Virus record (IMG/VR): IMGVR_UViG_3300032770_001054
Span: 1 to 23,950 of that record
DNA: 23,950 nucleotides
Reading direction: 5' to 3' (one strand)
From: a virus
The notes beneath the pieces are model-generated. The model ran no database searches. It was not told the DNA's origin and worked only from the letters and a program-made list of their open reading frames with translations. The first letter of the stretch is position 1, and each line of letters begins with the position of its first letter. Of this stretch, positions 1,725 through 20,034 are shown piece after piece. A program made the position numbers and the translations under genes.

Positions 1725-1850
1725 CAATGCGTCGGTTCGTCAGTCTGTCAGCCAGTTGATGGTCAAAGGGCCGAAAGTCGAACTCCGGAAATAGAGATGA
1801 TCCGATCCTCCGACCACTCAATCACCCAATCCCTCAATTACCGACGTTCA
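1725..1850. repeat. Intergenic word-repeat array
   Basis: The gap between the fibre gene and the 160-aa tail protein carries degenerate words of the type found at most gene junctions here (GTCAGTCTGTCAG near 1740; CACTCAATCACCCAATCCC near 1815-1835). No start codon with a ribosome site other than that of the fibre gene lies in it. Confidence 0.5.
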
Positions 1851-2316
1851 CGCTCGATCGCATCGCGACACAGTAGACCTTCACCGTGCCCTGATTCTGC
1901 GCGGCGTTCCCGGCGAAATAGACCTGGCACGTGACCAGGCCGGTTGCGTCGTTGATGTCCAGCTCGTAGGGCACGACCAGCAGGCTACCGGTACCCAAAT
2001 CGTTGTTCGCCAGCGCCGGAAAACCGGCCTGGCCCGGCACGAATCCGGCCGCCGGCTGCCGGCTGGAAGCGAAAATCGGCATGAACACACATTCGTTCCG
2101 CTGATATGCGTATCCGTCCACCGGGCTCACCGGCGCGGGCACGGTGTTGCCGGAAGTATAAAAGCCCATGTAGATCACCTCCGCGCGCACGGCGGCAAAC
2201 TTGGCATTGTGCGAAATCTTGAGGAGCGAATCGTCCGTTAGCGGCTGCCCGCCCGCAATCGCCGAATCGGCCAGATCGAAGAATCCGGGCACGGCGTTCA
2301 TCGTTAGCTGACTCAT
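1834..2316 (-). CDS. Hypothetical tail-tip protein
   Basis: This 160-aa soluble protein has no signal peptide or membrane segment. The N-terminal half is mixed (FFDLADSAIAGGQPLTDD, then ISHNAKFAAVRAEVIYMGFY). The C-terminal half is beta-rich (SLLVVPYELDINDATGLVTC, then QVYFAGNAA). It lies between the hub gene and the fibre gene and has a very good ribosome site (AGGAAGGGA) six bases before the ATG. Position and composition suggest a minor tail or fibre-associated structural protein. I do not recognise the family. Confidence 0.65.
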   Translation of the reverse strand: MSQLTMNAVPGFFDLADSAIAGGQPLTDDSLLKISHNAKFAAVRAEVIYMGFYTSGNTVPAPVSPVDGYAYQRNECVFMPIFASSRQPAAGFVPGQAGFPALANNDLGTGSLLVVPYELDINDATGLVTCQVYFAGNAAQNQGTVKVYCVAMRSSVNVGN

Positions 2317-2373
2317 AATTCATCCCTTCCTGAGCTCACGATCACAGGCAACGGAGAACTGAAAGCTGACCCC

Positions 2374-5300
2374 TCAGTAAATTGTGTTGCCCGGCGTTCC
2401 ATCGGGATTCCCTCCCTTCTGGGCAGCCAATGAAACAAACATATATTCGCCGCGCTCGGTTCCGGTCGCCTGCTGCCACTCCGGAACGTTGAGCGTTGCC
2501 GGCGCGATCTGATAGGGCGTGGGGAGATTCAAAAACCTCGTGTCGAGCAGCGAGAACCCCACGCGCCCTTGCGCGTAGTCCGGCCGGCGATTGACGACTT
2601 CGCAGGTGATATTGACAACGCCCAGCCTTCCCGTCTGGAAATCCACCAACAGCGGATGAGTAAGCGACACCAGATCGCCAAGTTCGACCGCGAGCGACGC
2701 CAAGTGCGTCTGGACGTTATATACCGGCGGCGCAAAAGCGTGCCGGCGAAAGATCCGGTCCGCGAGCATCCAGGAGCGCATCGTCGCCCCATAATTGGTG
2801 CGCAAGCCGGTCGCCTCCACCTGCTGCTCGTAGACTTGCTGATAGCGCTGGAAAGAAGTCTGCTGTTGATAGGTCAACTGACCGTCGTAAGCGCGCGCCG
2901 CAGTCGAGCAGCCCAGATTATTCACGTCCATTCGCGCTGTAACCATGTTGACGATCGGCTGGCGCGCCGTCTCGGGGATGCCGATGATATTGCTCGCGGT
3001 CAAGTTGAACACCGATGTCTGATAGGGCAGCGGTTTCATGGGTTTGAGCCGCAGCCTGCCGTCCGCGCCGACAATAAGATAAAGACCGAGCGGCTTCAGG
3101 ATCTGATCTTCGATGAACTGCTTGCCGTCAATAGGGCGCGTGATGATGAACTCTAAGAAATCGCCGGAGAGCTGCGAATCGCGCAACGACAAAAACTGAT
3201 CAACATCGATGTACTGGCTCGGATTGATCAACGTGGAGTCATCGCCCGGGGTGAAAATCGCCCAGCCGGACGGCGGCGGCAGCGGATCGTAATTCTGCTG
3301 CTGAGCGTAGACGGGAGTGAGCTGGTTGAGGATGAAATTCGAATTGCGCAATGAGGGGTCCTGCCCCACCCCGAGCTCGTTTTGCAGTGCCGCCAGCAGA
3401 ATATCGATGGGATTGCCCTGAACGAATCGCGGATTGTCCTCGGATACGGGAAACCCGTTGGCGCCCGCCGCCGGACCCGCCGGTTGCGACGCAGTCTGGC
3501 CCGGGGACCATTCGCCTGGTCCGCCGGCCCACCAGATCTGCTGCCCCTGAATGAAGCGCTGGATATCCGCGCAGGTCAGCGTGATCATGCCGCTCGAATC
3601 CCAGCCCACCTGGGTGATCTGGAGCGTGTGCAAAGTGACAAAATCGCCGATGCTGAGCGAAGGGAAACCCATTTGGAATTGCACCACCTTGCCGATCAGG
3701 GCGTCCTGCGCCGCAAGCTGCTTCAAAGTGCCGCTTGGGTCAATGCACTTGACGGTCATCGCTCCGACCGAGGACGTTCCTTCCAATTCGTTTGCCGTCT
3801 GACTCGATCCGGTGGGAATCTGCATCGTCTCCAGAAGCGTGGCTGTGTTCGACATGGTCAGTAACAGGCCCGGATACTCGGATACCAGCCAGAACCAGGC
3901 GGTGGCGGCGAACATCGGCCACACCTGGAATTCCCAGGGCAGGGCGCGTGCAGCCAGCGAATAGCCGACCAAGCTGCCGTCGCCGGTGGTGGCGCGGATG
4001 GTACGCTGTCCGGCAACCAGGGTCGTCAGGAGGGCGTCGGTGCTGGTTCCGAGGTTGTGGAAGTAGGAAGAGAGCCCGGGGATGCCGTAGAGCTGGGTAA
4101 GCGCCAGGATCGCGCCCCAGGTCCCCTCCTGCCACACTGAAAGGGGCGATCCTGAATAGCCGCTCGGCGAATCGCTGTAAGGCTTGAAACCGGAGAAGGG
4201 CGCCGGCTGCTGATAGGCTTCATTCCAGGAGTCGGCGACGTTCGAGAGCTGAATGGTCTGATTGCTCAGCAGGAAGTTTTGATAGAAGAACTCGATGCAC
4301 TGCAGCGCGATATCATCGCGCCCCACGGCGTGCGCCCACGTCGCCGTCCACGTTCCGGACACGTCCAACGCCTGCGACGTGTCGAGATTGTTTCCGGTAA
4401 CGCCCTGCGCGAAGTGCCCGGGCGTGCCGCCCGACGGCGCGACGTAGAGCCGGTTGATCAGATTGGTGGCGAGCGTGGCGGCGATTGGCCCGGCTTCGGT
4501 GGCCGTGTTCTGCAGCGATTGCGCCTGTGCGGGGGTGATCGTCCCGGTCTTCTCTAGTGCTACGGCTGCCACGGGCAGCACGCCCGAGGCGCGCATCAAG
4601 GCGAAATAAAGATCGACCTGATGTTCGGTCGAGACCGCAGTCTGCAGGCCGGGGATGAACTGATAGCCGGGATCGGCATAACCGCCGTAGCCCAAATAGA
4701 AGAAGCCGTTCGTCAGGTCGCTTGCCGTTGATTGCAGGGTGAGCAGAAAGTTGATCATGGCCTGCAGGCTCAGGGCCGGCAAGTAGTCCCGCGACAGACT
4801 CATATAGACGCAGTAGGCATAACAGACCCACGCCATTGCCCCGGCGCGGATGTAAGCTTGATCGACGACGCCGTAGAACACGTCGTAGCTGAAGCACAGC
4901 GAGTTTGCGGGCTGCGGATTCCCCACGCTGACATTGTCGACATACATCGTCATGCCGGCCGAACCCAGCGTGACCTTGAGACCTGTCATCGAGGTCAGGG
5001 TGTCCCCGGCGAGGCTGGCGATCAGGGATTGAACCGCCACCAGGGTCACGCGCCAGTCGGACGATCCCGGGCCGATGGGAATCGTGATCTGGTGCGCGGC
5101 ACTGTTATATGTCGCGGGCGCCGCGGCGTTCGAATTCACCTGAACCTCGGCCACCTTACCGGAGGCGGTAGTCACACTGATATCGACCTGGAACGTGCCA
5201 TCGCCCTCGTAGTGCTCGAAGCTGACCTGCGAGTCCCTCGAGTCCGGCAGTGCTGAGCCCGTGAACGTGAAGACGGCGTTGGCAGCGTTCGCCGTAAGCT

Positions 5301-6660: not shown

Positions 6661-6679
6661 GACGGTTCTCAGTCTTCAG

Positions 6680-6819
6680 CTATCAGTTCCCTGTTGTGGA
6701 TCGTGGTTCGTCGATCGTCGTTCGTTGCTCCACCATCTGGCATATGATCGAATGAAACCGAGAACTGAGGATCGATCACTTGTTCCAATCGACGATCGGC
6801 AATCGAAAATCGAAGATTG
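6680..6819. repeat. Intergenic paired word-repeat (inverted arms)
   Basis: Words based on TTCGTCGATCGTCGTTCG (about 6706-6725) on the left and CAATCGACGATCGGCAATCG (about 6786-6805) on the right are near reverse complements sharing the core CGATCGTCG/CGACGATCG, so the gap can fold into an imperfect long hairpin. It lies between the hub gene and the 59-aa gene. No coding frame with a ribosome site is seen. Confidence 0.6.
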
Positions 6820-6999
6820 CTATGTCCCATAGGGGGCAACTCCATACAGTCCGACGCCGAAGCCGCTCAATCCGACTCCAGTCGCCTTGACGGAGAAGCT
6901 TGCCAGGATCACGCCGAAATCCGGGATTTGCAGAATGTAGAGTGGCTGCTTCTGTAGCTGCGCCAATGCGACCTGCCAGGTTGTATTGCCTTGAATCAT
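6820..6999 (-). CDS. Small tail protein, 59 aa
   Basis: An ATG at 6999 opens a 59-aa frame ending in TAG at 6820: MIQGNTTWQVALAQLQ, then KQPLYILQIPDFGVILASFS, then a Gly-rich end (GVGLSGFGVGLYGVAPYGT). It is bounded on both sides by word-repeat arrays, as real genes here are, and sits between the distal-tail candidate and the hub. Its ribosome site is weak. The middle resembles short beta elements of tail-tip proteins, but I cannot name a family. The reading frame and position are the main evidence. Confidence 0.55.
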   Translation of the reverse strand: MIQGNTTWQVALAQLQKQPLYILQIPDFGVILASFSVKATGVGLSGFGVGLYGVAPYGT

Positions 7000-7084
7000 T
7001 GGTCAGTTACCGGTTCTCGGTAGCCGGTTCTCGGCAAGCTTCGAAGAATGCGCTTGAACCGGCAACCGCCAACCGGAAACCCTT
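7000..7084. repeat. Intergenic paired word-repeat
   Basis: The left array (GGTCAGTTACCGGTTCTCGG, 7000-7019, then GTAGCCGGTTCTCGG) and the right array (GAACCGGCAACCGCCAACCGG, about 7054-7074) are complementary around GGTTaCCGGTTC/GAACCGGcAACC, giving a hairpin between the 59-aa gene and the 127-aa gene. Confidence 0.6.
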
Positions 7085-7468
7085 TCACGTCGTTACCTGC
7101 CTGAACTTCACTTTGAAGCTGTACTGGCCCGCAGACTTGTAGTCGGCGGTCCAATCCGTATCTTCCAGCCAGTAATTGGTGAACGAGGCCACCGAGGCGT
7201 CCGGATAGTAAGCAAATTGCCCGCCCGCGAGGGCGTAAAGCATGAAATTGGACCATGCCTGTACGTCCGAACCAATCGCGACCCACTCCATCTCGAACGT
7301 CAGAAAGATATCGATACGCTCCAGCACGGACTCGCGGATCCCGCTGGAGGCGATATTGTCGTGACGCGTCGCCTTGAACTCATACGCCGGCACCTTGCGC
7401 GGATAGCGCTGGAATGAGAGCGTCAACGGTCCGGTACCGGGATCGTAGATGATTTGCGGATACGCCAT
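7085..7468 (-). CDS. Distal tail protein candidate
   Basis: This 127-aa protein lies between tape measure and hub, the usual place of the distal tail (Dit) or a tail-completion protein. The sequence is beta-rich and aromatic: QIIYDPGTGPLTLSFQRYP, then KVPAYEFKATRHDNIASSGI, a central RIDIFLTFEMEWV strand pair, and a C-terminal GQYSFKVKFRQV strand. The pattern of residues 1-60 (a tag-like opening, then RESVLERIDIFLTFEMEW) suits a beta-barrel that contacts tail rings. Length is shorter than classical Dit proteins (about 200-250 aa), so it may be only the N-terminal ring domain. The ribosome site is modest (GAGAT just before ATG). Confidence 0.6.
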   Translation of the reverse strand: MAYPQIIYDPGTGPLTLSFQRYPRKVPAYEFKATRHDNIASSGIRESVLERIDIFLTFEMEWVAIGSDVQAWSNFMLYALAGGQFAYYPDASVASFTNYWLEDTDWTADYKSAGQYSFKVKFRQVTT

Positions 7469-7477
7469 ATCTCGAGG

Positions 7478-7576
7478 CAGTAGTCTGTGGCTAGTTAGTC
7501 ACTGGTCTGCTGCTCGACGGGTCAAGTAAGGTCTTCCGGCCGCTAGCCACTCGCCACCAGCCACTAGCTACTGCCT
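7478..7576. repeat. Intergenic paired word-repeat
   Basis: Left words GGCAGTAGTCTGTGGCTAG (7478-7496) and right words CTAGCCACTCGCCACCAGCC (about 7543-7562) followed by ACTAGCTACTGCC are complementary (GTGGCTAG/CTAGCCAC; GGCAGTAG/CTACTGCC). The block fills the whole gap between tape measure and distal-tail candidate. Confidence 0.65.
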
Positions 7577-8329
7577 TCACCCGCCTGCGTACGGCGATCG
7601 CTGCGTCCTCGTGGCCGTCAGAGTTACGCCACGCGCCACTCCCTGATTCAGTGTGTTGGCCAGCCAGTTCGCGGCCTCAGACTCGCCCATGATCGCCACG
7701 GTCAGACTGCCGCCGGGCCGCGCTGAAGCTCCCGGCGCGAGCACTCCCGCACCAGTTCCAACGCTGGCGCCCACACCGTAGCCGGCTCCATAACTGCCTC
7801 CGCCGTACCGAACACCCGCCCCGATTCCGCCCCCGGAAACACTTGCGCCGATTCCGGCAGCCACCCCCCCGATGCTTCCCCAGAGGGCTGCAGACTCGAA
7901 GGCGCTGGCTGCACCGGCAGCATCACCGACGGCGAGCAGATAGAATCCAAGGGCGCTCGCGCGCAGTGCCTGCACAATGGACTCGGCGGCGATGGAAGCC
8001 GTGGTCGATTTCAGAGTGCGATCCAGCGCCTGGCTCATCGATTGCGAGTAGACCAGCGCCGTACTGATGTTGCGTCCTAGACCGATGGCAAAACGGTCGA
8101 ACGTCAGGCTTGCCGCTTCCCCCAAAGTCATGAGCGCAGCGTCCACCGCCGAACTCTGGCTCAGGAATTGGCTGCTCCACTCCGCCTGGCCTCTCTGCAC
8201 TTGCGTGAACTCCGAGCGGACGGATTCCATCTGCTCGGTCGTCCTGCTGCGAAACCTCTCCAGTGCTGCCTGCGCCTGCGATGGATCCGCATTCACGCGA
8301 AATAGCAAGCCTAAAGAACCTTGCGGCAT
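7577..8329 (-). CDS. Short tail tape measure protein
   Basis: The protein is about 250 aa (ATG at 8329 chosen over a GTG at 8338 because GAGAG sits just before it). Residues 15-75 form a coiled coil (ALERFRSRTTEQMESVRSEF, then TQVQRGQAEWSSQFLSQSSA). Helical, weakly hydrophobic segments follow (DRFAIGLGRNISTALVYSQS; ESIVQALRASALGFYLLAVG), then a Gly-rich stretch and a C-terminal helix (EAANWLANTLNQGVARGV). Position directly after the tail-assembly chaperone and the coiled-coil plus hydrophobic layout identify the tape measure. At this size it is far shorter than usual (600 to over 1000 aa), implying a very short tail or a reduced gene. A short repeat-filled gap separates it from the chaperone. 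Confidence 0.7.
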   Translation of the reverse strand: MPQGSLGLLFRVNADPSQAQAALERFRSRTTEQMESVRSEFTQVQRGQAEWSSQFLSQSSAVDAALMTLGEAASLTFDRFAIGLGRNISTALVYSQSMSQALDRTLKSTTASIAAESIVQALRASALGFYLLAVGDAAGAASAFESAALWGSIGGVAAGIGASVSGGGIGAGVRYGGGSYGAGYGVGASVGTGAGVLAPGASARPGGSLTVAIMGESEAANWLANTLNQGVARGVTLTATRTQRSPYAGG

Positions 8330-8337
8330 ATCTCTCA

Positions 8338-8408
8338 CAGTCCGGAGTCGGTCCGTCTCTCAGTCCGGAGTCATTCGGTCTTCGACTCCGGACCTCGGAC
8401 TGAGCGAC
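8338..8408. repeat. Intergenic paired word-repeat
   Basis: CAGTCCGGAGTC occurs twice (8338-8349 and 8361-8372) and is answered by GACTCCGGAC (8384-8393) and CGGACTG (8396-8402). This gives a strong potential stem between the chaperone's shifted-frame stop and the tape measure start. It could also work as a terminator or attenuator, but there is no U-tract. Confidence 0.65.
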
Positions 8409-9015
8409 TCAACGACTACCTTTCCGCATCTGCTCTTCCCGCCAGCGCCACAGCGCCACCGCAGCGGCGAAGTCGAATTGCACCGCCACGAGCGGCGGCG
8501 TGACGTCCAGAAGCTCACTTGGGCGGCAGTGCCACGTCTCCGCAACCTGCGCGACTCGCAGCAGGTGTTCCGTCTCGACGAAAGCTGGCGAGGTCGCCGG
8601 AATCCGAAGCGACCTCGCCCACCGCCCATCGAATTACAAAGCTTGCGTCGTCCAGATCGAGGAGATCGGGCGAGATTTCACCCGGCCCCGGCTCGAGTGC
8701 GAGGCGCGGTTCAACGAAGACTTCGCTCAGCAGGGGCACCATCCATTCCGCCAGCGCGCGCAGGTCCTCCACGGTCTGAATCCGTGTATGGCCGCCCTCA
8801 AGCTTCACGGCAATGCTGGCCGGCAGGAGACCTCGGAACAGGAACCACATCGGGCTCGGACGGCGCAACAGGACCTTCAGGCCGGACTTCGGAAGCACGA
8901 CGTGCTCGGGCTGGCCGCGCAGCCGTGCTGCGAAAATAAAGTCATCGGGAGACGCGACGCCGTTCTTTGCCTTTGGCGCTTCGCTGACTCCCGGAGTTGA
9001 ATTCTGAGTTTCCAC
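8409..9015 (-). CDS. Tail assembly chaperone, frameshifted long form (G-T type)
   Basis: Behind the stop of the short form, another frame runs to a TGA at 8409-8411. It reads VETEHLLRVAQVAETWHCRP, then SELLDVTPPLVAVQFDFAAA, then VALWRWREEQMRKGSR. This looks like real protein, while the short form's tail (RRDGTPAASRAGCG...) does not. The frame is open only after a TAA at 634-636 of the 8000s (8634-8636), so the ribosome must shift +1 (or -2) between 8633 and 8517. A UUU C heptad-like site at 8583-8580 allows tRNA-Phe to slip from UUU to the better-matched UUC. The joined product would be 201 aa. Long-form chaperones in siphophages bridge tape measure and tail tube. Confidence 0.65.
8515..9015 (-). 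CDS. Tail assembly chaperone, short form (G type)
   Basis: This 166-aa protein starts at GTG 9015 with GAGG five bases upstream. The N-terminus is disordered. The core reads FIFAARLRGQPEHVVLPKSG, LKVLLRRPSPMWFLFRGLLP, then DLRALAEWMVPLLSEVFVEP and DLLDLDDASFVIRWAVGEV, which is the form of tail-assembly chaperones lying between tube and tape measure genes. Such proteins coat the tape measure while the tail polymerises and are absent from the mature virion. From about residue 146 the frame becomes low-information, consistent with the normal product ending shortly after a frameshift site. Confidence 0.7.
   Translation of the reverse strand: METQNSTPGVSEAPKAKNGVASPDDFIFAARLRGQPEHVVLPKSGLKVLLRRPSPMWFLFRGLLPASIAVKLEGGHTRIQTVEDLRALAEWMVPLLSEVFVEPRLALEPGPGEISPDLLDLDDASFVIRWAVGEVASDSGDLASFRRDGTPAASRAGCGDVALPPK
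8580..8583 (-). promoter_or_regulatory. Predicted +1 programmed frameshift site (TTT C)
   Basis: In the chaperone gene the zero frame reads AGC TTT CGT CGA. Skipping the C after TTT gives TTT/GTC GAG ACG GAA, the start of the conserved-looking second half. Phe-UUU to UUC repairing is a chemically favourable +1 slip because tRNA-Phe carries GAA. The exact site is inference. Any +1 or -2 slip between the upstream TAA (8634-8636) and 8517 would also join the frames. Confidence 0.45.
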
Positions 9016-9017
9016 TT

Positions 9018-9142
9018 AAGCCTCATTGGAGCGATGGCAAGTAGCGAATAGGGAGGGGCCGATACCTGGCTTGTGTCTATTCGCCATTCGCTGCTCGCTA
9101 CTCGCCTGGTCGCCATTCGCTGCGCTTTTCATCATTCGTCTT
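9018..9142. repeat. Intergenic paired word-repeat
   Basis: Left words GGCAAGTAGCGAATAG (about 9037-9052) and right words CTATTCGCCATTCGCTGC, then TCGCTACTCGCC (about 9076-9107) are complementary (TAGCGAATAG against CTATTCGC; GTAGCGA against TCGCTAC). The element fills the gap between tail tube and chaperone genes. Confidence 0.65.
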
Positions 9143-9754: not shown

Positions 9755-9763
9755 GCCGCCTCC

Positions 9764-10297: not shown

Positions 10298-10301
10298 GGT
10301 T

Positions 10302-10643: not shown

Positions 10644-10664
10644 TCCGGGCCTCTCTTGCCTGCC

Positions 10665-11525: not shown

Positions 11526-11556
11526 TCCTCACCTCCCACGAGTTCAGGGATTGACA

Positions 11557-11793: not shown

Positions 11794-11807
11794 CATGCCT
11801 CCCGCCC

Positions 11808-11876
11808 GGGTGTTCAGTTCGGAGTCGTTCAGTCCGGAGTCCGACTTCGGACTGATTGACTGCGGACGGGCTGACC
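11808..11876. repeat. Intergenic paired word-repeat / hairpin
   Basis: CAGTCCGGAGTC (near 11838) is followed after two bases by ACTTCGGACTG, with more copies of TTCAGTTCGGAGTC at 11814-11828. This gives a tight hairpin between the major capsid gene and the 79-aa gene. The words match those of the 8338-8408 element. Confidence 0.6.
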
Positions 11877-11877
11877 C

Positions 11878-12816
11878 TTATTGCGTCGCGTTCAAGAACA
11901 CGTACCCGGCCAGCGGCGCCACGATCTGGAGGTCGTCATAGCGGTGCACTTCGATAACGTCCGCCATGCGATTCTCCACGCGATAGCGCTTGGTCAACGT
12001 CCCGCCGAGTTCCGGCGCTCCGAAGAGCCAGCGGAAGGTGTAGCCCAGCGCCGGCTCGCGCAAACGAGGCTCCTCCGGGACATAGGCCAGCAGCGCGTTT
12101 TTGCCCCACACGAAGTTGAGGCTGGGCGCCTGACCCTCGTTCGCGGTGTCGTATTCGGCTCCCAGGACCCAGAAATTGTCCACATCGAAGGCGCTCTTCA
12201 GGTGATCCGCCTGCAGCACGCCGACCTGCGTGTACTTGAACCGGTCGATGATCCGCGGATGCTGCCGCAACGTGGAATAAACCGGGTAGCTCACCGCCAG
12301 CGTGTTGGGCGTCTGCGCGATGGCCTGCTTGATGATCGTTTTCTGCGCCTCCACGGCCGCGATCGGGTCAGAGTTCACGAAGTCGGACCATTGCGATGTG
12401 CCCGACAGTGTGACGTTGGGGACCGTCGAGTTCGAGCCCATCACCAGGTTCGCGACGCGGATCTCGAAGTCCAGCAGGATGGCGTCCGTCAGATTCTCCA
12501 CCGTGTTCACTTCCAGATCCGTGCCCTCGGAATTGGCCGCCTCTTCGTCGGAGATCGCGTCCTTCAGCGAGTGATCGTCGCAGAAGTACGGCGAGTTCGA
12601 GAGGGACCAGGGCGCGATCTCGCGCGCTTCGGCGCGAGCGTGCCGGATGGTCTCGTACTGCTTGAATTTTTCCTTGCCGAATACCCAGTAGCGCCCCGAC
12701 TGCTTGCGCACCGGGGTGACCGGGAACAGGCGCTCGCCAAAGTAGTCGTCGTTCTGATAACCGACGCTTACGTTGTTGAGGGGCTGGTCGAGGTATTGAA
12801 GCGAAATATCAGCCAT
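11878..12816 (-). CDS. Major capsid protein
   Basis: The start is at ATG 12816 (MADISLQYLDQPLNNVSVGY), giving 312 aa. GAGGAAG lies six bases upstream, while an earlier in-frame start at 12855 falls inside a repeat array. Features seen are FGERLFPVTPVRKQSGRYWV, an E/D-rich loop near residue 80-105, the helix PIAAVEAQKTIIKQAIAQTP with PNTLAVSYPVYSTLRQHPRI, IDRFKYTQVGVLQADHLKSA and GYTFRWLFG near the end. The block with STLRQHPRIIDRFKYTQ, LLAYVPEEP and GYTFRW is typical of a capsid family of about 310 aa seen in transposable and related phages (HK97-like fold). It lies just after the decoration gene, as in many such phages. Confidence 0.8.
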   Translation of the reverse strand: MADISLQYLDQPLNNVSVGYQNDDYFGERLFPVTPVRKQSGRYWVFGKEKFKQYETIRHARAEAREIAPWSLSNSPYFCDDHSLKDAISDEEAANSEGTDLEVNTVENLTDAILLDFEIRVANLVMGSNSTVPNVTLSGTSQWSDFVNSDPIAAVEAQKTIIKQAIAQTPNTLAVSYPVYSTLRQHPRIIDRFKYTQVGVLQADHLKSAFDVDNFWVLGAEYDTANEGQAPSLNFVWGKNALLAYVPEEPRLREPALGYTFRWLFGAPELGGTLTKRYRVENRMADVIEVHRYDDLQIVAPLAGYVFLNATQ

Positions 12817-12824
12817 TTTCTTCC

Positions 12825-13039
12825 TCAGTGACAAGTGACAAGTGACGAGTGACAAGTCAACTCATCCGAAACAGGCGCCCGGGCGCGCCGGGCAATTGAA
12901 GCCATCCACCGCCGGCCGCCCCGTTCCGCAGAGGCCGCGCGGCTTCCGCTGGCGCCTGCGCCAGACCCTGCGCAGGTTCAGCCAGCCGCCGTAACGCTTG
13001 CGAGTGACTCGCTCGTCACTTGTCACTCGCCACTCATCA
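12825..13039. repeat. Inverted-arm repeat flanking a 120-bp island between capsid and decoration genes
   Basis: The left arm (12829-12863) is built from GACAAGTGAC and GACGAGTGAC words. The right arm (13005-13039) has CGTCACTTGTCACTCGCC, largely the reverse complement. Between them (about 12866-13000) lies non-repetitive, GC-rich sequence with a minus-strand open frame (RRLAEPAQGLAQAPAEAARP, then LRNGAAGGGWLQLPG) that has no usable ATG or ribosome site. It may be a decayed small gene or a cargo of the repeat. Confidence 0.6.
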
Positions 13040-13525
13040 CTACACTTTGGTCTGAGCGAAATTCAATTCCACTTGCACCACGTCGTTCAGGTTGCTGACG
13101 TTGTGCAGCGCCATGCCCACCGGATAAACCGTGGTGCCGGCGGCTTCGCTCACCGCCTTCACCCGGCCGTAGACGTCCGCGATGTTCACCAGCTGGCCCT
13201 GATTGATGGCTCCGGCCGCAATGCAACGCGCGATCCCGTTCACCTGCAGCGTCAAGCCGCGATTCTGCAGGTTGTACAGCGTGGGTGGCGTGCCCGTCAC
13301 AGTGGACGGATTCGTGCCCTGCGGCACGAAGTAGTTCGGCTCCACGAAGTGCTCCACCGTGACGCCGAGTACGCCCGGCGCGTTGGCCGCGGCGGGCAGC
13401 GCGGCGAACTGCTGCGATTGCGTCGACGGATTGGCCGTCGATTGCACCAGCGCCGTGAACTTGCAGATCCTCACGTTCGCGTCCGCCCGAAACCCGAGTG
13501 TCAGTCCGTTGGTTGCTCCTGCCAT
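13040..13525 (-). CDS. Capsid decoration/cement protein (DUF2190-like)
   Basis: This 161-aa beta-rich protein begins MAGATNGLTLGFRADANVRI. Its C-terminal half (GLTLQVNGIARCIAAGAINQ, GQLVNIADVYGRVKAVSEAA, YPVGMALHNVSNLNDVVQVE) has the short-strand, Gly-turn pattern of DUF2190/cement proteins, which stabilise the capsid at three-fold sites. The ribosome site (GGAGGAGAAA before ATG) is among the strongest here, as expected for a highly expressed virion protein. Its stop is close to the repeat element that precedes the capsid gene. It lies between the protease/scaffold gene and the capsid gene. Confidence 0.65.
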   Translation of the reverse strand: MAGATNGLTLGFRADANVRICKFTALVQSTANPSTQSQQFAALPAAANAPGVLGVTVEHFVEPNYFVPQGTNPSTVTGTPPTLYNLQNRGLTLQVNGIARCIAAGAINQGQLVNIADVYGRVKAVSEAAGTTVYPVGMALHNVSNLNDVVQVELNFAQTKV

Positions 13526-13811
13526 TTTCTCCTCCAGTTGTCAGTCGTCAGTTGTCAGTTGTCAGTTGCTGAATGACACGGGCAACTGGCAACCAGGAAT
13601 TTTGGATTGCCGGTTGGCGATTTGCCGATTCGAGGCCGGCCGTCTTCATAGGCAAGCGACGAATGACAAGTGGCCCATAAGGGATAAATAGTAAGAAGTT
13701 CCTTACTCTCTTCTCGTCTGTCAGCTTACCTGCTCCGTGTCTCTTTCCCGTCACTGGCCACGTCCCTTGTCACTTGCACTCTCTTGCCACTCACCACTTG
13801 CCCACTGGTTT
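13526..13811. repeat. Long intergenic word-repeat region
   Basis: The 286-base gap carries GTCAGTCGTCAGTTGTCAGT (13541-13560 area) answered by GGCAACTGGCAAC (about 13583), and a second zone with TCACTGGCCACG and TTGTCACTTGCAC words near 13752-13800. A small palindrome AGTAAG-AAGTTC-CTTACT sits at 13690-13707. The open frames here are repeat-encoded. I see no gene. Confidence 0.6.
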
Positions 13812-14576: not shown

Positions 14577-15281
14577 GTCGGTTTCTCCTTCGGACGGGAG
14601 GGGCCCCGGTTGTGCCTGCCCCTCGGATGACGCGCTGGCGTCCACTCGGGGCGCCCCTGCGATCGACCCCAGATCGGTCAGCATCAGCGCCGGCAGCTCT
14701 TCCAGAAACGGATGATTCGTCAGGGCGCCGGAAGTCAGCGTCGCGCCTTGCGGCTTCCCGGTCAGCTTGTCGCGCGCTCCCCAGTCGATCGAAGGCGAAA
14801 AAAAGCGGTACTGCCCGCTGTGAATCAGGTCCTTCGCCTCGGGCGTCCATTCGACCAGCGCCGTCAGGCGGTCTCTGGCCTGCAGGTTGTGCCCGCCTTT
14901 GCCGTGGTCCGGCCCGGCGTGCCAGGGAGCCCGGTCCAGAAAGAGGTCGTGAATCCAACCCGCCGCGGGCACCGGCCCGCCGCGTGCGACCCCCGGGTCT
15001 TCGCTGGCGTGCTCGTAATCGATCACCACCATCTCGTTCCTGCGCTTTTCGAAGTTGCGCAACATCGTCTGCAGGTCCTCGAACCGGATGGCGAAAGTGT
15101 GGCCATCTTTCACCCAGGCGCCGGAGACAGCCACCGGCACTTCATAGAGATTCTTGCCGGCGCGCTGCACGGGCGTTCCCGCGGAGAAGAGTTCCCAGGC
15201 GAAATGACGGCTTGTCGGTTGTCCGTGGTCGGTGGCCCGCTCTTCGTAGTCTCTCAAAATCTGAACTTCGCCAGTGCCCAT
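13812..15281 (-). CDS. Prohead protease with C-terminal scaffold (Mu I type)
   Basis: The 489-aa protein begins at an ATG with a good AGGAGCAGGGAGCT site. Residues 45-210 match the Mu I protease pattern: VAVSGAWVKDGHTFAIRFED, EMVVIDYEHASEDPG, VPAAGWIHDLFLD, LTALVEWTPEAKDLIHSGQY, RFFSPSIDW, LTNHPFLEELPALM. The protease cuts the scaffold and other head proteins during capsid maturation. From about residue 236 the sequence becomes a helical scaffold with coiled-coil stretches (ARDQEAASRALILSEVVRDG, KILPRDRHFFFRDALERPRE). An internal ATG at 14576 with GGAG spaced seven bases should produce the scaffold alone. The first 20 residues (ATDHGQPTSR) are encoded by repeat words shared with the portal's tail. 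Confidence 0.8.
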   Translation of the reverse strand: MGTGEVQILRDYEERATDHGQPTSRHFAWELFSAGTPVQRAGKNLYEVPVAVSGAWVKDGHTFAIRFEDLQTMLRNFEKRRNEMVVIDYEHASEDPGVARGGPVPAAGWIHDLFLDRAPWHAGPDHGKGGHNLQARDRLTALVEWTPEAKDLIHSGQYRFFSPSIDWGARDKLTGKPQGATLTSGALTNHPFLEELPALMLTDLGSIAGAPRVDASASSEGQAQPGPLPSEGETDMEPKRLSIRMLTEGPHAGHHGIFYGDELVGYMTDEDFCHYAQKHLAGAVPAAAPAPAEAATDAAALSGLFAERVGADGAAIEDIRSLVEYGRNAQARDQEAASRALILSEVVRDGRLRVERALELARDQKISLTDYMAVQTAERALDGAVTAGKILPRDRHFFFRDALERPREFNEYVERAAVVVRLGSDGIGSGESVPVDQEVDLGARLLMSEQKISYAKALKALFRENPALEARYRAAHRPELKPGGETAMQ

Positions 15282-15450
15282 AGCTCCCTGCTCCTCGCGG
15301 CCTATTCCCTATTCATATGCAACCGGCAACTGACGAGTGACAACGGACGACTTCGCCACTCGCCACTCCCTGCGCTACTCCCTGTTCCCCTCGACCTCAC
15401 CGACGTCCAACCGACCACTGACCACGGACGGCGGACGACGGACAGCGGAC
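15200..15450. repeat. Paired word-repeat spanning the portal/protease junction, partly coding
   Basis: GTCGGTTGTCCGTGGTCGGTGG-type words (about 15212-15233), inside the protease start, are complementary (14 of 15 bases) to CCAACCGACCACTGACCACGGA (about 15408-15429), inside the portal's 3' end. The space between (15282-15374) is filled with GACGAGTGACAACGGACGAC and CGCCACTCGCCACTCC words. The element has therefore become coding at both edges, giving ATDHGQPTSR in one protein and AVRRPPSVVSGRLDV in the other. Confidence 0.55.
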
Positions 15451-16937
15451 GGACTCTCCGGCGGCAGCGCCAGTTCCTCGCGAATGAAGCTGCGCAAATT
15501 CTCTTCGCTCACCACCAGCCCCGCTTGCGCGAACTGGGTGAGCGCTTCCACGATGTCTTCGAGGCCGCGCGCCTGGACGTTGGCCGGCACCAGGCGCGGT
15601 ACCGGCGCGTCGTCGCCGAAGTTGTAGGAGACGAGCCGCCGTACGGTGCTGTTGGTGATGTCAAGCGCGATCTGGTCGGCGAGGTTCTGCAGCGCCAGCA
15701 GGAAAAAGTCGCCATGCTGCTTGCCCAGCGCGCGCGATCCGTGCTCCGACTGGCCCAGGTCCATGAACAGCGCCAGCGCCGCGCGGGAGATCATCACGTT
15801 GTGGTGCTCGATGCTCGGCGCCAAGTCGCGCACCCGCCCCTCATAGCCTACAATTCTGAATCCCGAGGCGGCGTCGCCCGGCGGCTCAACCATTCCCGTA
15901 GCCTCGTGCGCCGCCAGCTGGGTTACGAAGTTGTAGGCGGCGGCGCGGTCCTCGGCGGAAAACCCCGGCGCCAGCTTGAAGACCGGCACACCCAGGGAGT
16001 TGCGCTCGCACGCGATGGCGTCAATCCGGTAGAGGTTGCTCTTCACGTACCAGTGCGGGTACATGGGACGTTGCAGCGAGATACCCCAGAAGTTGGCGCC
16101 TTCCTGCTGGTAGGTGAAGACGCAGCACTTGTCCGCCGGCACCACGACATTCACGTATTGGCCCCCGCGGTAGCCATACTGCTCGAGCGCCAGCAGCGTT
16201 TCGCCGTCGGCCTCGGTGTGCCAGCGATAAAAGGTGATGGGCAGCCGCGCCGCCAGCTTGCGCAAGCGAACGCGGCCGCCGTCCACGGTCCAGACGTCTT
16301 CGTGCACGGCGCAGCCAAAATCGAGCATTAGCAGGGCGTTGCGCACCACGTCGTCCCAGTTCTGCGTGGCCCATCCGCCGGTCGAGGTTCGGAATTCCAG
16401 GCCGCCGAAGAGATTCGCTCTGACGAATTGCGCAATTTCCCGCCCCTTGGCGGCCGTCGCGCGACCAGCGCCGTTCGAAGAGATCGGATGATCGGATGAT
16501 CGGGTCATCGGTTCATTGTCTGGTTGATCGCCCGATGGCCAGATCACCCGATCGCCCGATGGAACGACTTCCCACTTCGCGCTCAAGACGGGCAACTTGC
16601 ACGCCGCCAAAGTCGCCCTCACCTGCGCGTCCCCGCGCCGCATCTTTTCGTAAATCGGCAGCGCGTTGCGTCCGGCCAACTCCCCGTTGTACTCGCCCAG
16701 GTCCTCCAGGAATCCGCTGACGATCGGCGTGCCGGGAATACCCAGCGTGAACGCCGTCGGCCGATGCTCGCCCGGCGGCGGCGTAGGAGGAGGTACCGGC
16801 GCGCTGGCTCCTGGTAAGAGCCAGGGCGCCGGTCCTCCGGGGGGAGGGAAACCTATTTCACGATCGCGTGTGGCCAGCGCCGTATCGAGCCGCGCGGCGC
16901 GTGTGGAATTTCCGTTCCTGTTGACCGGTCTGCGCAT
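15375..16937 (-). CDS. Portal protein, DUF935 family (Mu gp29 type)
   Basis: This 520-aa protein begins with a disordered Pro/Gly-rich 55 residues. The DUF935 core has LPIYEKMRRGDAQVRATLAA, KLPVLSAKWEV, FVRANLFGGLEF, DDVVRNALLMLDFGCAVHED, FTYQQEGANFWGISLQRPMY, ACERNSLGVPVFKLAPGFSA, FMDLGQSEHGSRALGKQHGD and the long helix FFLLALQNLADQIALDITNS. Twelve copies form the DNA channel at the capsid vertex. Length is close to Mu gp29 (about 512 aa). Residues about 126-152 (VIWPSGDQPDNEPMTRSSDH) are encoded by an in-frame word-repeat array, and the last 25 residues derive from another. No ribosome site stands out other than AAGGA. The next gene is the protease, so Mu F is missing. Confidence 0.85.
   Translation of the reverse strand: MRRPVNRNGNSTRAARLDTALATRDREIGFPPPGGPAPWLLPGASAPVPPPTPPPGEHRPTAFTLGIPGTPIVSGFLEDLGEYNGELAGRNALPIYEKMRRGDAQVRATLAACKLPVLSAKWEVVPSGDRVIWPSGDQPDNEPMTRSSDHPISSNGAGRATAAKGREIAQFVRANLFGGLEFRTSTGGWATQNWDDVVRNALLMLDFGCAVHEDVWTVDGGRVRLRKLAARLPITFYRWHTEADGETLLALEQYGYRGGQYVNVVVPADKCCVFTYQQEGANFWGISLQRPMYPHWYVKSNLYRIDAIACERNSLGVPVFKLAPGFSAEDRAAAYNFVTQLAAHEATGMVEPPGDAASGFRIVGYEGRVRDLAPSIEHHNVMISRAALALFMDLGQSEHGSRALGKQHGDFFLLALQNLADQIALDITNSTVRRLVSYNFGDDAPVPRLVPANVQARGLEDIVEALTQFAQAGLVVSEENLRSFIREELALPPESPSAVRRPPSVVSGRLDVGEVEGNRE
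16482..16562. repeat. In-frame word-repeat hairpin inside the portal gene
   Basis: The left arm (GATCGGATGATCGGATGATC then GGGTCATCGG, 16482-16511) and right arm (GATCGCCCGATGGCCAGATC then ACCCGATCGCCCGATGG, 16526-16562) are partial reverse complements built from 8-9 bp words. It adds about 27 residues to the N-terminal third of the portal without breaking the frame. Confidence 0.75.
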
Positions 16938-16947
16938 GTCCTTAACC

Positions 16948-17062
16948 GGGGCCAGGGGTCGGGGTTCGGGCTCGATCCGCGATTGGGGTCCAACCTGTAA
17001 GTCCCTGTAGCCCGTCTCCGTCCTGTTTCCTGGCCCCTGATCCCTAATCCCTAGTCCCCGCT
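16948..17062. repeat. Intergenic paired word-repeat
   Basis: GGGGCCAGG (16948-16956) is answered by CCTGGCCCC (17029-17037), followed by CTGATCCCTAATCCCTAGTC words. It lies between the 41-aa gene and the portal start. Confidence 0.6.
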
Positions 17063-17064
17063 CT

Positions 17065-17190
17065 TCAAAGCTTCCTTGCGATGTCGCCGGCCAAACTCTT
17101 TCCTTGAGAAATCAGGCGCGACCAGTACACTCGCGCCACAACGACTCCGGCCACGAATGCGGCCGCAATTTCGACCAGTTGTGTCAACAT
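17065..17190 (-). CDS. 41-aa single-span membrane peptide
   Basis: An ATG at 17190 with GTGAGGATCGT directly upstream opens a frame to TGA at 17065. It reads MLTQLVEIAAAFVAGVVVAR, then VYWSRLISQGKSLAGDIARK, then L. Residues 5-23 are a hydrophobic helix and the remainder is amphipathic and basic. This is the layout of tiny phage membrane proteins (lysis regulators, antiholins, superinfection proteins). It lies in the terminase-portal cassette with the holin. The ribosome site and intact frame are seen directly; the role is unknown. Confidence 0.55.
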   Translation of the reverse strand: MLTQLVEIAAAFVAGVVVARVYWSRLISQGKSLAGDIARKL

Positions 17191-17214
17191 ACGATCCTCA
17201 CGTTTAAAGTCGAG

Positions 17215-17823
17215 TTACCCAGCTACCAGTGAAGGGTGATTTGGGCGGCCGGGAAACTCGCCGGATCCGCTTCTCCCTCCTGACCTCGCTCGCTCGATCG
17301 CCTTGGCCGCGCAATCAGGGCACATGCCGTGTGTGAAATCAGCCTCCGAATGGGCGGCGACGTAGGCCTCGACTTCATTCCAGTACCCGCGGTCATCGCG
17401 AATCTTCTTGCACCAGGCACAGACAGGAATCAATCCCCGCAGCGTCTTCACGCTCGCGATAGCCTTCTGAAGTCTGGCTTCCTGCGCGTCTTCCAACCTT
17501 CTGCGGCTGCTCACCAGCAAAGCGACCACGACGAAGAAACTGAGTACGATCGCGCCGTTCCAGAAAGGAATGAAGGCACGCCCGTATTGGCACCCGGACC
17601 GCAGGTCCACCCCCAGAAGCGATCCCGCACAGACTGCGGAGACCAAGAGCCCTGCTGTCCTCCCTGCCGTCCAACTGGCCAGGCTCACCGGAAGCAGGCA
17701 GAGACTTGAGACGGCGACTTCGTCACCGGTCACGACGTCAAGAAGCGTCACGGCGCCCACCAGACTCACCGTCGTCAGGGCCAGCAAGAGCTTCGAGTTC
17801 TCCAGGCGCTTCCAGTAACCCAT
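17215..17823 (-). CDS. Four-helix membrane protein with C-terminal CxxC signalling-type domain
   Basis: ATG 17823 is preferred over a GTG at 17877 because AAAGG lies about nine bases upstream, giving 202 aa. Four membrane helices are visible (LLLALTTVSLVGAVTLLDVV; VSSLCLLPVSLASWTAG; AGLLVSAVCAGSLLGVDL; FWNGAIVLSFFVVVALLVSS). A short coiled coil (RRRLEDAQEARLQKAIASVK) follows, then LRGLIPVCAWCKKIRDDRGY and a CPDC. That last module (CxxC...CPDC around GYWNEVEAYV) is known from the C-termini of PAS/GAF sensor and response-regulator proteins. Here no kinase or cyclase is attached, so it is a sensor fragment carried in the phage cassette, perhaps a moron. It abuts the winged-helix gene. Confidence 0.65.
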   Translation of the reverse strand: MGYWKRLENSKLLLALTTVSLVGAVTLLDVVTGDEVAVSSLCLLPVSLASWTAGRTAGLLVSAVCAGSLLGVDLRSGCQYGRAFIPFWNGAIVLSFFVVVALLVSSRRRLEDAQEARLQKAIASVKTLRGLIPVCAWCKKIRDDRGYWNEVEAYVAAHSEADFTHGMCPDCAAKAIERARSGGRSGSGEFPGRPNHPSLVAG

Positions 17824-17889
17824 GGGTCGAAACCTTTTCCCACCCTCGGCGGCGAAGGCCTTGAATCGCCCGGCCACCGTATAGGAAAT

Positions 17890-18201
17890 TCAAAACGCCA
17901 CTCCGACATCGGGCGGCAGCCTTCCATCCAGCAGATCCACTGCCTTAGACAGCGCCCGAACGAGGTACAGCGAAATATCGGCCCGGCCGGGGCGCGGGTT
18001 GCGCGTCTCGATGTAGTCGCGACCGCCAAGGTATCGCAAGTGGAACCACAGCTCGGCGTCCGTCAGTGGATACCCTTGCCCGCGCGCCATCTGCGCGCGC
18101 AATTCGGAAAACGGGACCCACTCCAGGTTGCGATGAACCAGGATCATCAGGATCACGCCTCGCTGGACTTCATGCCGTACATCGCTGGTCAGGTCTGACA
18201 T
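17890..18201 (-). CDS. Winged-helix phage protein, third paralogue
   Basis: The 103-aa protein reads MSDLTSDVRHEVQRGVILMI, LVHRNLEWVPFSELRAQM, LTDAELWFHLRYLGGRDYIE and ends SKAVDLLDGRLPPDVGVAF. It aligns by eye with the proteins at 22304-22615 (same DV-x-x-E-x-x-R-G start and LTDAxLxFHxxYL) and 23268-23591 (same LLDGRLPP ending). The fold pattern (helix, turn, helix, wing, helix) and the GRxxxPG-like ending resemble the small VpaChn25_0724-type proteins of Mu-like phages. These have no known catalytic role and are presumed DNA- or protein-binding. Its placement after terminase is unusual. Confidence 0.65.
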   Translation of the reverse strand: MSDLTSDVRHEVQRGVILMILVHRNLEWVPFSELRAQMARGQGYPLTDAELWFHLRYLGGRDYIETRNPRPGRADISLYLVRALSKAVDLLDGRLPPDVGVAF

Positions 18202-18204
18202 TCG

Positions 18205-18255
18205 CGTTCCATTGACTCAATTGACTCAATGATCCAATGAACCAATCCCTCAATT
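18205..18255. repeat. Intergenic word-repeat
   Basis: Tandem ATTGACTCA words (18213-18232) followed by ATGATCCAATGAACCAATCCC and CTCAAT fill the gap between holin stop and the winged-helix start. Confidence 0.6.
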
Positions 18256-18759
18256 TTTCGCCGCCTGCTTCTCCACAATCTTGTTGAGCCGGTCCGCGTG
18301 AATCTGCAGCGTGTTCTGAATATCGTCCGTCGTGCCTCGGGTCTTTTCCCACGTGCGGGCGCCGGTGTAACCGAGGAAGGCCACGCCGAACAGCTCCAGG
18401 TAGGCCTCAGGAATCTCCATCACCATCAGCCCGCGGTGCGTCACCAGGTTCAACACGGGAAAGACGATCATCGAGCAGGCGATGCCCAGGATCATGACGT
18501 AGAGAAACGTGGGGCGCGCCCGGCGCACGTAGGCGTCTTCGCTCTGTGTTTCCGCGCGGATGTTCTGGCCCTGAACCTCCGCCAGAGCTTCGTCGCGCGC
18601 GGCCTCGATCTGATCGCGCTGTACTTCCAATTGCTGCGCCGCCTGCTGCATTTGCGCCTTCTGCTCCGGCGAGATATGAAACTGATCGATCAGGTCGCCG
18701 ATCGATTTGAGCGGATCGCCGCTCACGAGTCCTTTGAAGATTTGTGTGAAGCCACCCAT
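18250..18759 (-). CDS. Holin of the 3TM / gene-transfer-release type
   Basis: The 169-aa protein has a charged, helical N-terminus (IGDLIDQFHISPEQKAQMQQ and QRDQIEAARDEALAEVQGQN), then DAYVRRARPTFLYVMILGIA, CSMIVFPVLNLVT and a second hydrophobic stretch LELFGVAFLGYTGARTWEKT. The RRARPTFLY-type sequence before the first membrane helix and the hairpin-like membrane part are characteristic of the 3TM holin family first described in gene-transfer agents. It would form the membrane lesion that ends the lytic cycle. No endolysin is recognised nearby. The ribosome site is weak. Confidence 0.75.
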   Translation of the reverse strand: MGGFTQIFKGLVSGDPLKSIGDLIDQFHISPEQKAQMQQAAQQLEVQRDQIEAARDEALAEVQGQNIRAETQSEDAYVRRARPTFLYVMILGIACSMIVFPVLNLVTHRGLMVMEIPEAYLELFGVAFLGYTGARTWEKTRGTTDDIQNTLQIHADRLNKIVEKQAAKN

Positions 18760-18764
18760 ATATC

Positions 18765-18910
18765 ATTCAGTCAGTGGTTCGCTTTCGGCAGTGCGTCAGT
18801 TTGTCAGTACCTCAGTTCCACCCTGCCTGCTGCTTACCGCCTCCTGCCTCCTGCCTTGGTGCCGACCCCCACCTGCTGACAGCTATTCCCTATTCGCTAC
18901 CGCCTACTCC
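18765..18910. repeat. Intergenic word-repeat
   Basis: CGGCAGTGCGTCAGTTTGTC and ACCGCCTCCTGCCTCCTGCC words, then ATTCCCTATTCGCTACCGCC and TACTCCCTAC. The block ends at the stop codon of the 36-aa frame (18911). Confidence 0.55.
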
Positions 18911-19021
18911 CTACTTACGACCCGCTCCAGATTTCCCGCGTCCGCCCGCGCTCATGAGCCCAAGCCCGCTAGGGTCGCTTGCGGCTGCGAGCGGCGGGCG
19001 GTATACGGGATGAGGCACCAT
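18911..19021 (-). CDS. Possible 36-aa peptide
   Basis: An ATG at 19021 opens MVPHPVYRPPLAAASDPSGL, then GLMSAGGRGKSGAGRK, ending in TAG at 18911. It is Pro/Gly-rich with a basic end and no membrane helix. The frame exactly fills the one non-repetitive island between two word-repeat arrays, and other such islands are genes. The ribosome site is poor. I rank this as a plausible but unproven small gene. Confidence 0.3.
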   Translation of the reverse strand: MVPHPVYRPPLAAASDPSGLGLMSAGGRGKSGAGRK

Positions 19022-19027
19022 GCGCCT

Positions 19028-19225
19028 GATGCCAGGCCTTCACCTGAGCCTGAATGTCTCAAACCTGGCACCTGAAAGCTGGCACCAAAACTCTTCAGTC
19101 GTCAGTTCAGTTGGCAGTCGGCAGTTGGCGGTCGGCAGCTACTGAATCGTTCCGCCAAGGGACGACCTGCCACTGCCGGCTGCCTACTGCGTACTGCCAA
19201 CTGCCTACCGCCTACTGCCTACTGC
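19028..19225. repeat. Intergenic word-repeat
   Basis: AAACCTGGCACCTGAAAGCT and GGCACC words (about 19061-19085), GTTGGCAGTCGGCAGTTGGC with GGTCGGCAG (about 19110-19138), answered by GCCACTGCCGGCTGCCTACT and repeated TGCCTACTGCC words (about 19170-19228). The arms are complementary (GGCAGTCGGCAG against CTGCCGGCTGCC). Confidence 0.65.
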
Positions 19226-19495
19226 CTAACAGCTCCCCAGAGCCGCTGACGCCGACCAGATCTGGTCCAAGGTCGGCTCTCCTCTCTCCGGGTGCTCCTG
19301 CAGGTGCTCCTGCATCATCTCCAGCAGTCGATCGTGAGCCCGCTGCCGTTCGCGGCACACGAGCACCAACTCGCGCACCGCCCAGCTCAAACGGCTCATC
19401 AGCATCAGAAACCCGACGGCGACTACCACCACCGCCAGGACGATCATGGGGGCCAGAACGCCCTCCCACACTTCGCTAAGTTCACCGATAATCAT
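19226..19495 (-). CDS. Small single-span membrane protein
   Basis: The 89-aa protein has an excellent ribosome site (GGGAGGG, seven bases before ATG). Residues 14-34 (LAPMIVLAVVVVAVGFLMLM) form a membrane helix. A basic amphipathic helix follows (RELVLVCRERQRAHDRLLEM then MQEHLQEHPERGEP) and the end is polar. The layout, short N-terminus outside and helical cytoplasmic tail, recalls small lysis-cassette proteins (spanin or holin partner), and the 3TM holin lies downstream. It is the first gene after the terminase and the tandem hairpin repeat. No family is recognised. Confidence 0.65.
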   Translation of the reverse strand: MIIGELSEVWEGVLAPMIVLAVVVVAVGFLMLMSRLSWAVRELVLVCRERQRAHDRLLEMMQEHLQEHPERGEPTLDQIWSASAALGSC

Positions 19496-19606
19496 TTTTT
19501 GTCCCTCCCGATGAAATCACTGTCCCCCCGCTGCACACTTGCCTCGATTGATGAAGATGTAGACCGCTCCGCTTGCTCCGCTTGATTAAGCAGTGCGGCT
19601 CCGCGC

Positions 19607-19990
19607 CCTGGCTTGACGAAAACCTTTCGCCTTTCCGCGAGGCAGATGTAAAAGAATTAAGGAAAGAAGGGCTTGCCGCCCCGCCGGAAGGCCAGAGGCT
19701 TTCCGCAAGGCAGGCGGCAAAGCCGCTCCTGACCCCAACACCGCCGCTGCTTGTGACTCAACACCGCAATTTTCAGCTGCTCTTCCCATCGTCTCTTCGT
19801 CGTTCCGCGCCCCAGTCAGAAGACAAGTAAGGAGAGGAACGGTTTGCCACCGGGCCGGAAGGCCCGAGCCGTTCCGCAAAGCGGACGGCAAAGCCGCTTC
19901 TCCGCCAACACGCTCTCCACCTGACCGAATACCGCCGCCCGTTCCGATCGAACCCCGCGGCTTTTCAGTTTTTCTTCCCATCGCGATCTC
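19607..19990. repeat. Tandem hairpin element with GGAA tetraloop
   Basis: Two units start at TAAGG (19658 and 19828, 170 bases apart) and end at CTTCCCATCG (19782-19791 and 19974-19983). Each has a core stem closed by a GGAA loop (GCC-GGAA-GGC at 19683-19692; CGGGCC-GGAA-GGCCCG at 19851-19866). An outer stem changes in sequence but keeps pairing (GGAAAG/CTTTCC in unit one, GGAACGG/CCGTTCC in unit two). A third stem of GGCTTGCCGCC/GGCGGCAAAGCC type follows. Traces of a further unit lie at 19607-19650. No gene is seen in 19496-20034 other than this. Confidence 0.7.
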
Positions 19991-20034
19991 TTGTCTCTTG
20001 CTTGCCACTTGTCACCTGCCATTTGCCACTGCTT

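Follow-up and report, generated by a model that had tools for sequence, protein, structure and literature searches.

The viral contig IMGVR_UViG_3300032770_001054 was analyzed over 23,950 bases (here termed the window). Its minus-strand genes encode a terminase, a portal, a head protease and a major head protein (phrog_1005), with weaker tail matches, and both its intergenic gaps and some of its genes hold short tandem arrays of degenerate words, many of them in inverted pairs. The closest relatives of the window are prophages in Terriglobia. Relatives of the capsid protein were present in five Terriglobia/Acidobacteria assemblies (loci L031–L035, 79–96% identity) and in viral contigs (L003–L005, 77–83%; L006, 50%), and a terminase scan of viral contigs yielded 80 loci, mostly distant. 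The nearest relatives, L033 and L031, share ∼69–87% nucleotide identity with the window, piece by piece. The window is a phage of soil Acidobacteria. The hosts are metagenome assemblies in which misbinned phage contigs are possible, and the 20 gaps were set by our own choice of open reading frames (ORFs), with predicted gene starts.

A period of 7 or 8 was significant in 14 of the 20 gaps at p<0.05 (12 at p<0.01), inverted arms were significant in 11, and both features coincided in nine. Control periods of 5, 6, 9 and 10 reached p<0.05 in 3 of 20 gaps, and among 30 coding segments the period was never significant and the arms once. Arrays of period 7, 8, 14, 15, 16 or 21 detected by Tandem Repeats Finder (TRF) made up 17.5% of gap bases vs. 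1.4% elsewhere; the density at period 7, 8 or 14 was 58 per 100 kb (14 arrays), and a shuffled copy had none. The arms are specific to their gap: the summed match was 204, compared with 136 (standard deviation [sd] 10) when right halves were dealt to other gaps, and none of 5000 permutations reached the observed value (17 gaps). The paired arrays that a sequence-only reading had described are therefore largely real, but its count of at least twelve gaps with a left and a right array shrinks to nine, and of its 7–11 bp words those of period 7 or 8 were confirmed and those of 9–11 bp were not. Its view that each gap has different words is only partly true, because words recur between gaps and across host genomes. 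It had also overlooked three arrays within coding sequence, in the terminase and portal genes (Table 1); the portal and terminase arrays have 29 bases in common at 93%.

Table 1. Arrays and associated elements of the window (p values for period and inverted arms; z, stem energy relative to shuffled sequence)
Feature	Position	Strand	Period p	Arms p	z	Remark
Period 7/8 words	1715..1833	-	0.004	0.607 (not significant)
Arrays GATCGTC (6699-6725) and CAATCGA (6786-6813)	6661..6821	-	0.002	0.199 (not significant)
Paired arrays ACCGGTTCTCGG / AACCGGC	6999..7084	-	0.002	0.005	-4.7
Paired arrays GCCACTA, period 7	7469..7576	-	0.002	0.005
Paired words CAGTCCGGAGTC	8333..8411	-	0.267	0.005	-3.7	TRF period 23, not 7/8
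Paired arrays, TTCGCCA-type words	9016..9142	-	0.002	0.015
Paired words CAGTCCGGAGTC	11812..11870	-	0.018	0.005		Gap below capsid gene
Array AGTGACA, period 7	12827..12857	-	0.002	0.005	-6.3	Adjoins ribosome-binding region of major capsid gene; mate at 13012-13041; values for the gap
Conserved hairpin core	12874..12908	-				Between both capsid-gap arms; in relatives with or without arms
Mate array of 12827..12857	13012..13041	-				End of upstream (scaffold) gene
Array CAGTTGT, period 7	13535..13568	-	0.002	0.015		Adjoins ribosome-binding region of scaffold gene
Further arrays in the same gap as 13535..13568	about 13755-13805	-
Array TCGCCAC	15282..15374	-	0.004	0.169
Additional array	15413-15452	-				End of portal gene
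Paired period-8 arrays GATCGGAT / GATCGCCC	16482..16560	-			-4.5	In portal gene, frame kept
Array CCCTAAT/CCCTAGT	16938..17059	-	0.002	0.164 (not significant)
Arrays ATTGACTCA / CAATGAAC, period 8-9	18202..18249	-	0.002	0.040
Arrays CCTGCCT, CTACTCC, CAGTCGG, CTGCCTA	18760..19225	-	0.002	0.005	-3.4	More than one pair
Array CTTGCCA (20001-20030) and duplicated palindromic element	19496..20034	-	0.002	0.005
Paired period-8 arrays ATCGGGTG / TCCGATGA	20591..20683	-			-3.2	In terminase gene, frame kept
Arrays TGACGAT and CTGCCGA	20894..20983	-		1.0		In terminase gene; not mutually inverted

The structure of the hairpins was analyzed in 70 hairpins from 11 phage loci chosen for having arrays, and in 26 from hosts G003 and G001; unit order and variable positions were tested on hairpins that reached the period threshold and had enough units. 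In an array hairpin, a single degenerate word of 7 or 8 letters is repeated along both arms. Similarity between units was flat with distance in 59 TRF arrays (0.87, 0.86, 0.89 and 0.90 at one to four units) and fell slightly within hairpin arms (0.74, 0.72 and 0.67). The variable position of the word agreed between arms (r=0.467 vs. a null of −0.08, sd 0.04; 79 hairpins), and mismatches between paired units clustered at one position (846 vs. 649, sd 17; 69 hairpins). That position, picked as the most variable, holds 3–4 different bases in 58 of 69 hairpins. The units are thus exchangeable, and one hypervariable position is common to both arms. A word of five fixed and two adjacent free positions was rejected, the second most variable position not being preferentially adjacent. 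Plain replication slippage, in which short words expand locally in tandem twice per gap, agrees with the tandem period and with unit numbers that vary between relatives (judged by eye). It is nonetheless very improbable: the inverted mates carry the same word, the period is fixed at 7/8 rather than spread, and slippage alone, listed as possible in the sequence-only reading, fails because the units are exchangeable without a fall of similarity over distance and the position that varies is shared by the two arms.

The hairpins also have a polarity. The G-rich arm preceded the loop in 108 hairpins and followed it in 23, with one tie (n=132; phage 56:10, host 20:5, further regions 30:6), an order that reads identically on both DNA strands. 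Inverted repeats without heptads had no consistent G bias in the five host genomes (G003 45:64, G001 57:46, G005 77:61, G002 95:106, G004 63:78). The commonest cores were GTCA (46 of 132 hairpins) and TCAG (42 of 132). If a telomerase-like activity extended the two 3′ ends at a break with templated G-rich repeats before they were joined, a single step would yield inverted arms with G-first polarity on either strand; a free position in each unit agrees with this as well. However, the words differ between elements of one genome, and no reverse-transcriptase match was found in the array-rich genome G030 or in 25 of 45 array genomes. The reverse-transcriptase idea is not supported by these searches, and we regard it as hardly credible.

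Homologous gaps were then compared among relatives. In L033, L031, L035, L004 and partly L003 and L005, inverted arms were seen by eye again, usually built from other words and sometimes around a kept core; no inverted arms were seen by eye in the homologous gaps of L032 and L034. Of six array-bearing phage loci, five had an arm identity of 0.51–0.72 at lag 7 and L006 one of 0.42, compared with mostly 0.15–0.4 at other lags. Gap similarity on the diagonal exceeded that of permuted pairings for window-L033 (0 of 5000 permutations), L033-L031 (p=0.003) and window-L031 (p=0.015), and reached p<0.05 in one of six more distant relative pairs; gap 7085 to 2374 (with an ORF inside), gaps whose gene ends aligned poorly and gaps of at least 600 bases were excluded. 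Some words and loops are thus inherited between the window, L033 and L031. At the three in-gene array sites of the window L033 has arrays too, with other words. The statement that the architecture is conserved while the sequence is not therefore holds among array-bearing relatives and fails in L032, L034 and most of L003; since these lack the arrays, the structure is lineage-specific.

Three further features were noted in these gaps. One gap has differing arms but keeps, within its loop, a block of ∼60–75 nt (CCGCCCGCCGCTCGCAGCCGCAAGCGACCC...; about 18955–19015 in the window, about 3990–4065 in L033). The palindromic element CGGCTTTGCCGCCTGCCTTGCGGAAAGCC... occurs in two copies in window gap 19496–20034 and again in the homologous L033 gap. 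In L004, the gap between the homologues of window genes 7577–8329 and 7085–7468 has a repeated unit of >100 bases, which itself holds CACAGAGA words in inverted arrangement.

Such hairpins might be selected RNA stems between genes, which would insulate translation or stabilize or process the transcript while letters drift and pairing is kept. RNA stem energy was below that of dinucleotide shuffles (z<−2) in 6 of the 20 gaps (strongest, −6.3 at 12805–13039), compared with a mean z of 0.03 and a minimum of −2.2 in 40 coding segments, so the stems at gene borders suspected from the letters alone have folding support in a minority of gaps. The arms also fill the space from stop codon to ribosome-binding region, and the architecture is repeated at homologous gaps with other letters. 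In contrast, there was no wobble bias on the transcribed strand of the 11 phage loci (G·T 99 vs. A·C 121, p=0.157), and G·U-type and A·C mismatches stood at 56:51 in later regions. Arrays also lie within two genes, relatives L032 and L034 have none, and the polarity is the same on both strands. The hairpin at the core of the capsid gap, by contrast, has real two-sided covariation. The window and seven relatives have it, whether arms are present or not; changes on both sides occurred at 5 of 7 pairs, and 96% of cells pair vs. 39–59% when slid. RNA-level selection on the arms is thus not supported, whereas the capsid-leader hairpin covaries clearly, and we consider the RNA-stem explanation decidedly unlikely. 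Because there is no G·U excess, arrays occur inside genes and related phages lack them, the arms probably arise by a DNA-level process; any effect on mRNA would be secondary. One heptad hairpin (L255, in G161) had 11 G·T and no A·C mismatches, contrary to the overall balance.

The capsid-gap core belongs to a 36-nt element upstream of the capsid gene (window 12874–12908, minus strand), in which GGCTTCAATT is followed by the covarying 7-bp stem, and which is possibly a capsid leader RNA. All eight of its carriers, distinct phages (window, L033:9295–9330, L034, L003, L035, L031, L032 and L004/L217), had served to train the model, and among the remaining loci searched nothing scored below E=0.2. 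An Rfam scan of the window gave no match at gathering score. Stem-like arms here flank a truly covarying hairpin, which cautions against calling such intergenic hairpins regulatory RNAs.

Array densities were compared between phages and hosts, the latter on samples of 186–400 kb per genome. Arrays of period 7/8/14 per 100 kb numbered 98 in L033 vs. 7.9 in its host G003 (11 in the host part of the L033 contig), 80 in L035 vs. 1.7 in G005, and 19 in L031 vs. 16.6 in G001; prophages L032 and L034 had none, and their array-poor hosts had 1.0 each. The word GTGACAAGTGAC occurred 25 times in G003, 16 in G001, 2 in G005 and not at all in G002 and G004. The main L035 word occurred 70 times in its host G005 (14 of them on a 24.9-kb phage contig), 11 times in G003, 4 in G001 and not in G002 and G004. 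Array-bearing phages therefore sit in array-bearing hosts with words in common, and phage arrays are denser than those of the host in two of three pairs. A check of host-clade genomes for the same architecture, proposed with the sequence-only reading, was positive: array words and heptad hairpins are present in Acidobacteriota, with one triple-heptad word pattern in 9 and another in 24 of 199 genomes. G177 had 579 matches to one such pattern, by far the highest number among the 199. At least one array of period 7/8/14 was found in 35 of 116 viral and prophage loci, partly as GC-rich coding repeats, and none in the other 81. In the genus of G030 all seven genomes match parts of the query, and by eye the homologous gap holds different palindromes or, in G209, a similar loop enclosed by different arms. 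A single word (query range 1590–1840) recurs at about thirty further places in G030. The words belong to genome-wide families.

The roughly thirty places in G030 also agree with the main rival, in which HUH Y1 transposases (IS200/TnpA-REP type) mobilize a REP-like element by acting on single-stranded hairpins. Across the 199 Acidobacteriota genomes, Y1_Tnp genes were commoner in genomes with array words (mean 5.27 vs. 1.88, p=1e-8, kinship ignored and without phylogenetic control), also when only 3.5–6 Mb genomes were considered (5.93 vs. 2.53, p=3.8e-5), and the logit z for Y1 was 4.4; the IS110 control (p=0.16) and reverse transcriptases (p=0.39 when size-matched) did not differ between the sets. 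Since reversed-pattern "controls" matched array-rich genomes, the association was computed both ways, on 29 array genomes without them and on 45 when they were included. Y1_Tnp was present in 40 of the 45 array genomes and in 85 of the remaining 154; the five array genomes without a match (G016, G121, G123, G143 with 161 word matches, and G161) may be incomplete, as may the others. A GTAG/GTGG tetranucleotide foot was found anywhere in the arms of 35 of 132 hairpins, compared with 30 in reversed arms, and the Y1 genes are not flanked by repeats: around 30 Y1 loci, 96,563 bases held five arrays of period 7/8/14 (5.2 per 100 kb). We give this transposase route a substantial minority chance.

Our preferred reading, to which we give an even chance, is that Acidobacteria and their phages carry the arrays as a dispersed, lineage-specific DNA repeat that is spread and homogenized by DNA copying. 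The arrays behave like a DNA-level repeat in rapid change, not like a conserved RNA switch, and they occupy free sequence: the space that separates a stop codon from the ribosome-binding region, and segments of two proteins that tolerate them. The copying mechanism acting on structure that the sequence-only reading had listed is the best fit. Spread and homogenization would occur by DNA copying at folded single strands, in replication or repair, through fold-back template switching and exchange of units within and between arrays. In the part of a yeast study covered here, template switching between inverted repeats homogenizes the arms (PMC8604942). Template switching would account for the words in common and for arms that change together; the flat similarity would follow from unit exchange.

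Several observations weigh against this DNA-copying account. (i) Template switching alone leaves period 7 and the polarity unexplained, and no enzyme is assigned to array copying. (ii) Arms mirror each other's unit order significantly but weakly (19.7, compared with 17.7 on permutation; 64 hairpins picked on arm match), and 2 of 62 hairpins are individually significant (p<0.05), which is less than recent fold-back copying predicts. (iii) Several gaps have arrays without significant arms, and contig G003:C349 has two hairpins, in its host part, that oppose the G-first polarity. (iv) The array excess over the host samples, 12-fold in L033 and 47-fold in L035 (1.2-fold in L031), is unexplained, and phage words match their own host weakly, as measured on those samples.

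The arrays are best read as an STRR-like heptad hairpin repeat. STRR heptamers, first described in heterocystous cyanobacteria, are intergenic direct tandem repeats dispersed in the genome. The arrays resemble them in their degenerate, mainly intergenic tandem seven-base units and in the dispersal of one word over many places of a genome, but differ in their inverted pairing and in their hosts, which are not heterocystous cyanobacteria; since the nearest relatives of the window are Terriglobia prophages, the arrays work like STRR and are not assigned to them.

The comparisons with cited papers concern the parts of those papers that were covered. Among the literature examined the nearest published case was the P6b stem-loop of the Nostoc tRNA-Leu intron, with heptanucleotide repeats of Class I (TDNGATT) and Class II (NNTGAGT) (PMC4476775). 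It likewise has a seven-letter unit with degenerate positions, units on both stem sides, length change by whole units and replacement of one word class by another in place; it is, however, one locus in an intron RNA with two word classes, whereas here many loci and words occur in phage and bacterial chromosome, also inside genes. The TAACTGA direct repeats of Beggiatoaceae, Cyanobacteria and Bacteroidetes (PMC4679880) are also heptamers in gaps and near start codons, and their reverse complement holds TCAGT, near the commonest cores here, but they consist of one word in direct repeats with only one indirect set, and single-base variants are rarely repeated. REP/BIME/REPIN elements with TnpA-REP (PMC6006769) share dispersed intergenic palindromes, several families per genome and frame-keeping in-gene insertions; unlike them, the arrays have no fixed tetranucleotide foot, an unflanked transposase gene and arms of period-7 words. 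Triple heptamers (7n3) are raised in some phyla in a pattern survey (PMC4060949), and prokaryote satellites from heptamers have been noted (PMC6749651). Paired degenerate heptad hairpins in Acidobacteria or their phages were not found described in open-literature titles and abstract openings, nor inverted pairing with a common variable position in the open literature covered, subscription papers being mostly outside both.

Heptamer repeats have so far been reported piecemeal in bacteria, with an unsettled mechanism. A bolder proposal, tentative and rather unlikely, is that paired hairpin arms in bacteria and phages are built and rewritten by a single, as yet undescribed process of DNA copying in a seven-letter register, in which six letters are copied and one is free (sometimes eight in all) and the G-rich arm precedes the loop on either strand. 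Heptamer repeats in Acidobacteria, Nostoc (trnL P6b) and Beggiatoaceae (TAACTGA) would all be traces of this process. The fixed period, the common free position, the G-first polarity and the other words at homologous sites constrain any mechanism, and phages with several relatives offer a fast-evolving test system for it.

Apart from the arrays, three small genes of the window (17890–18201, 22304–22615 and 23268–23591; ∼103–107 amino acids) are paralogue-like, and their proteins cross-match identical places in relatives.

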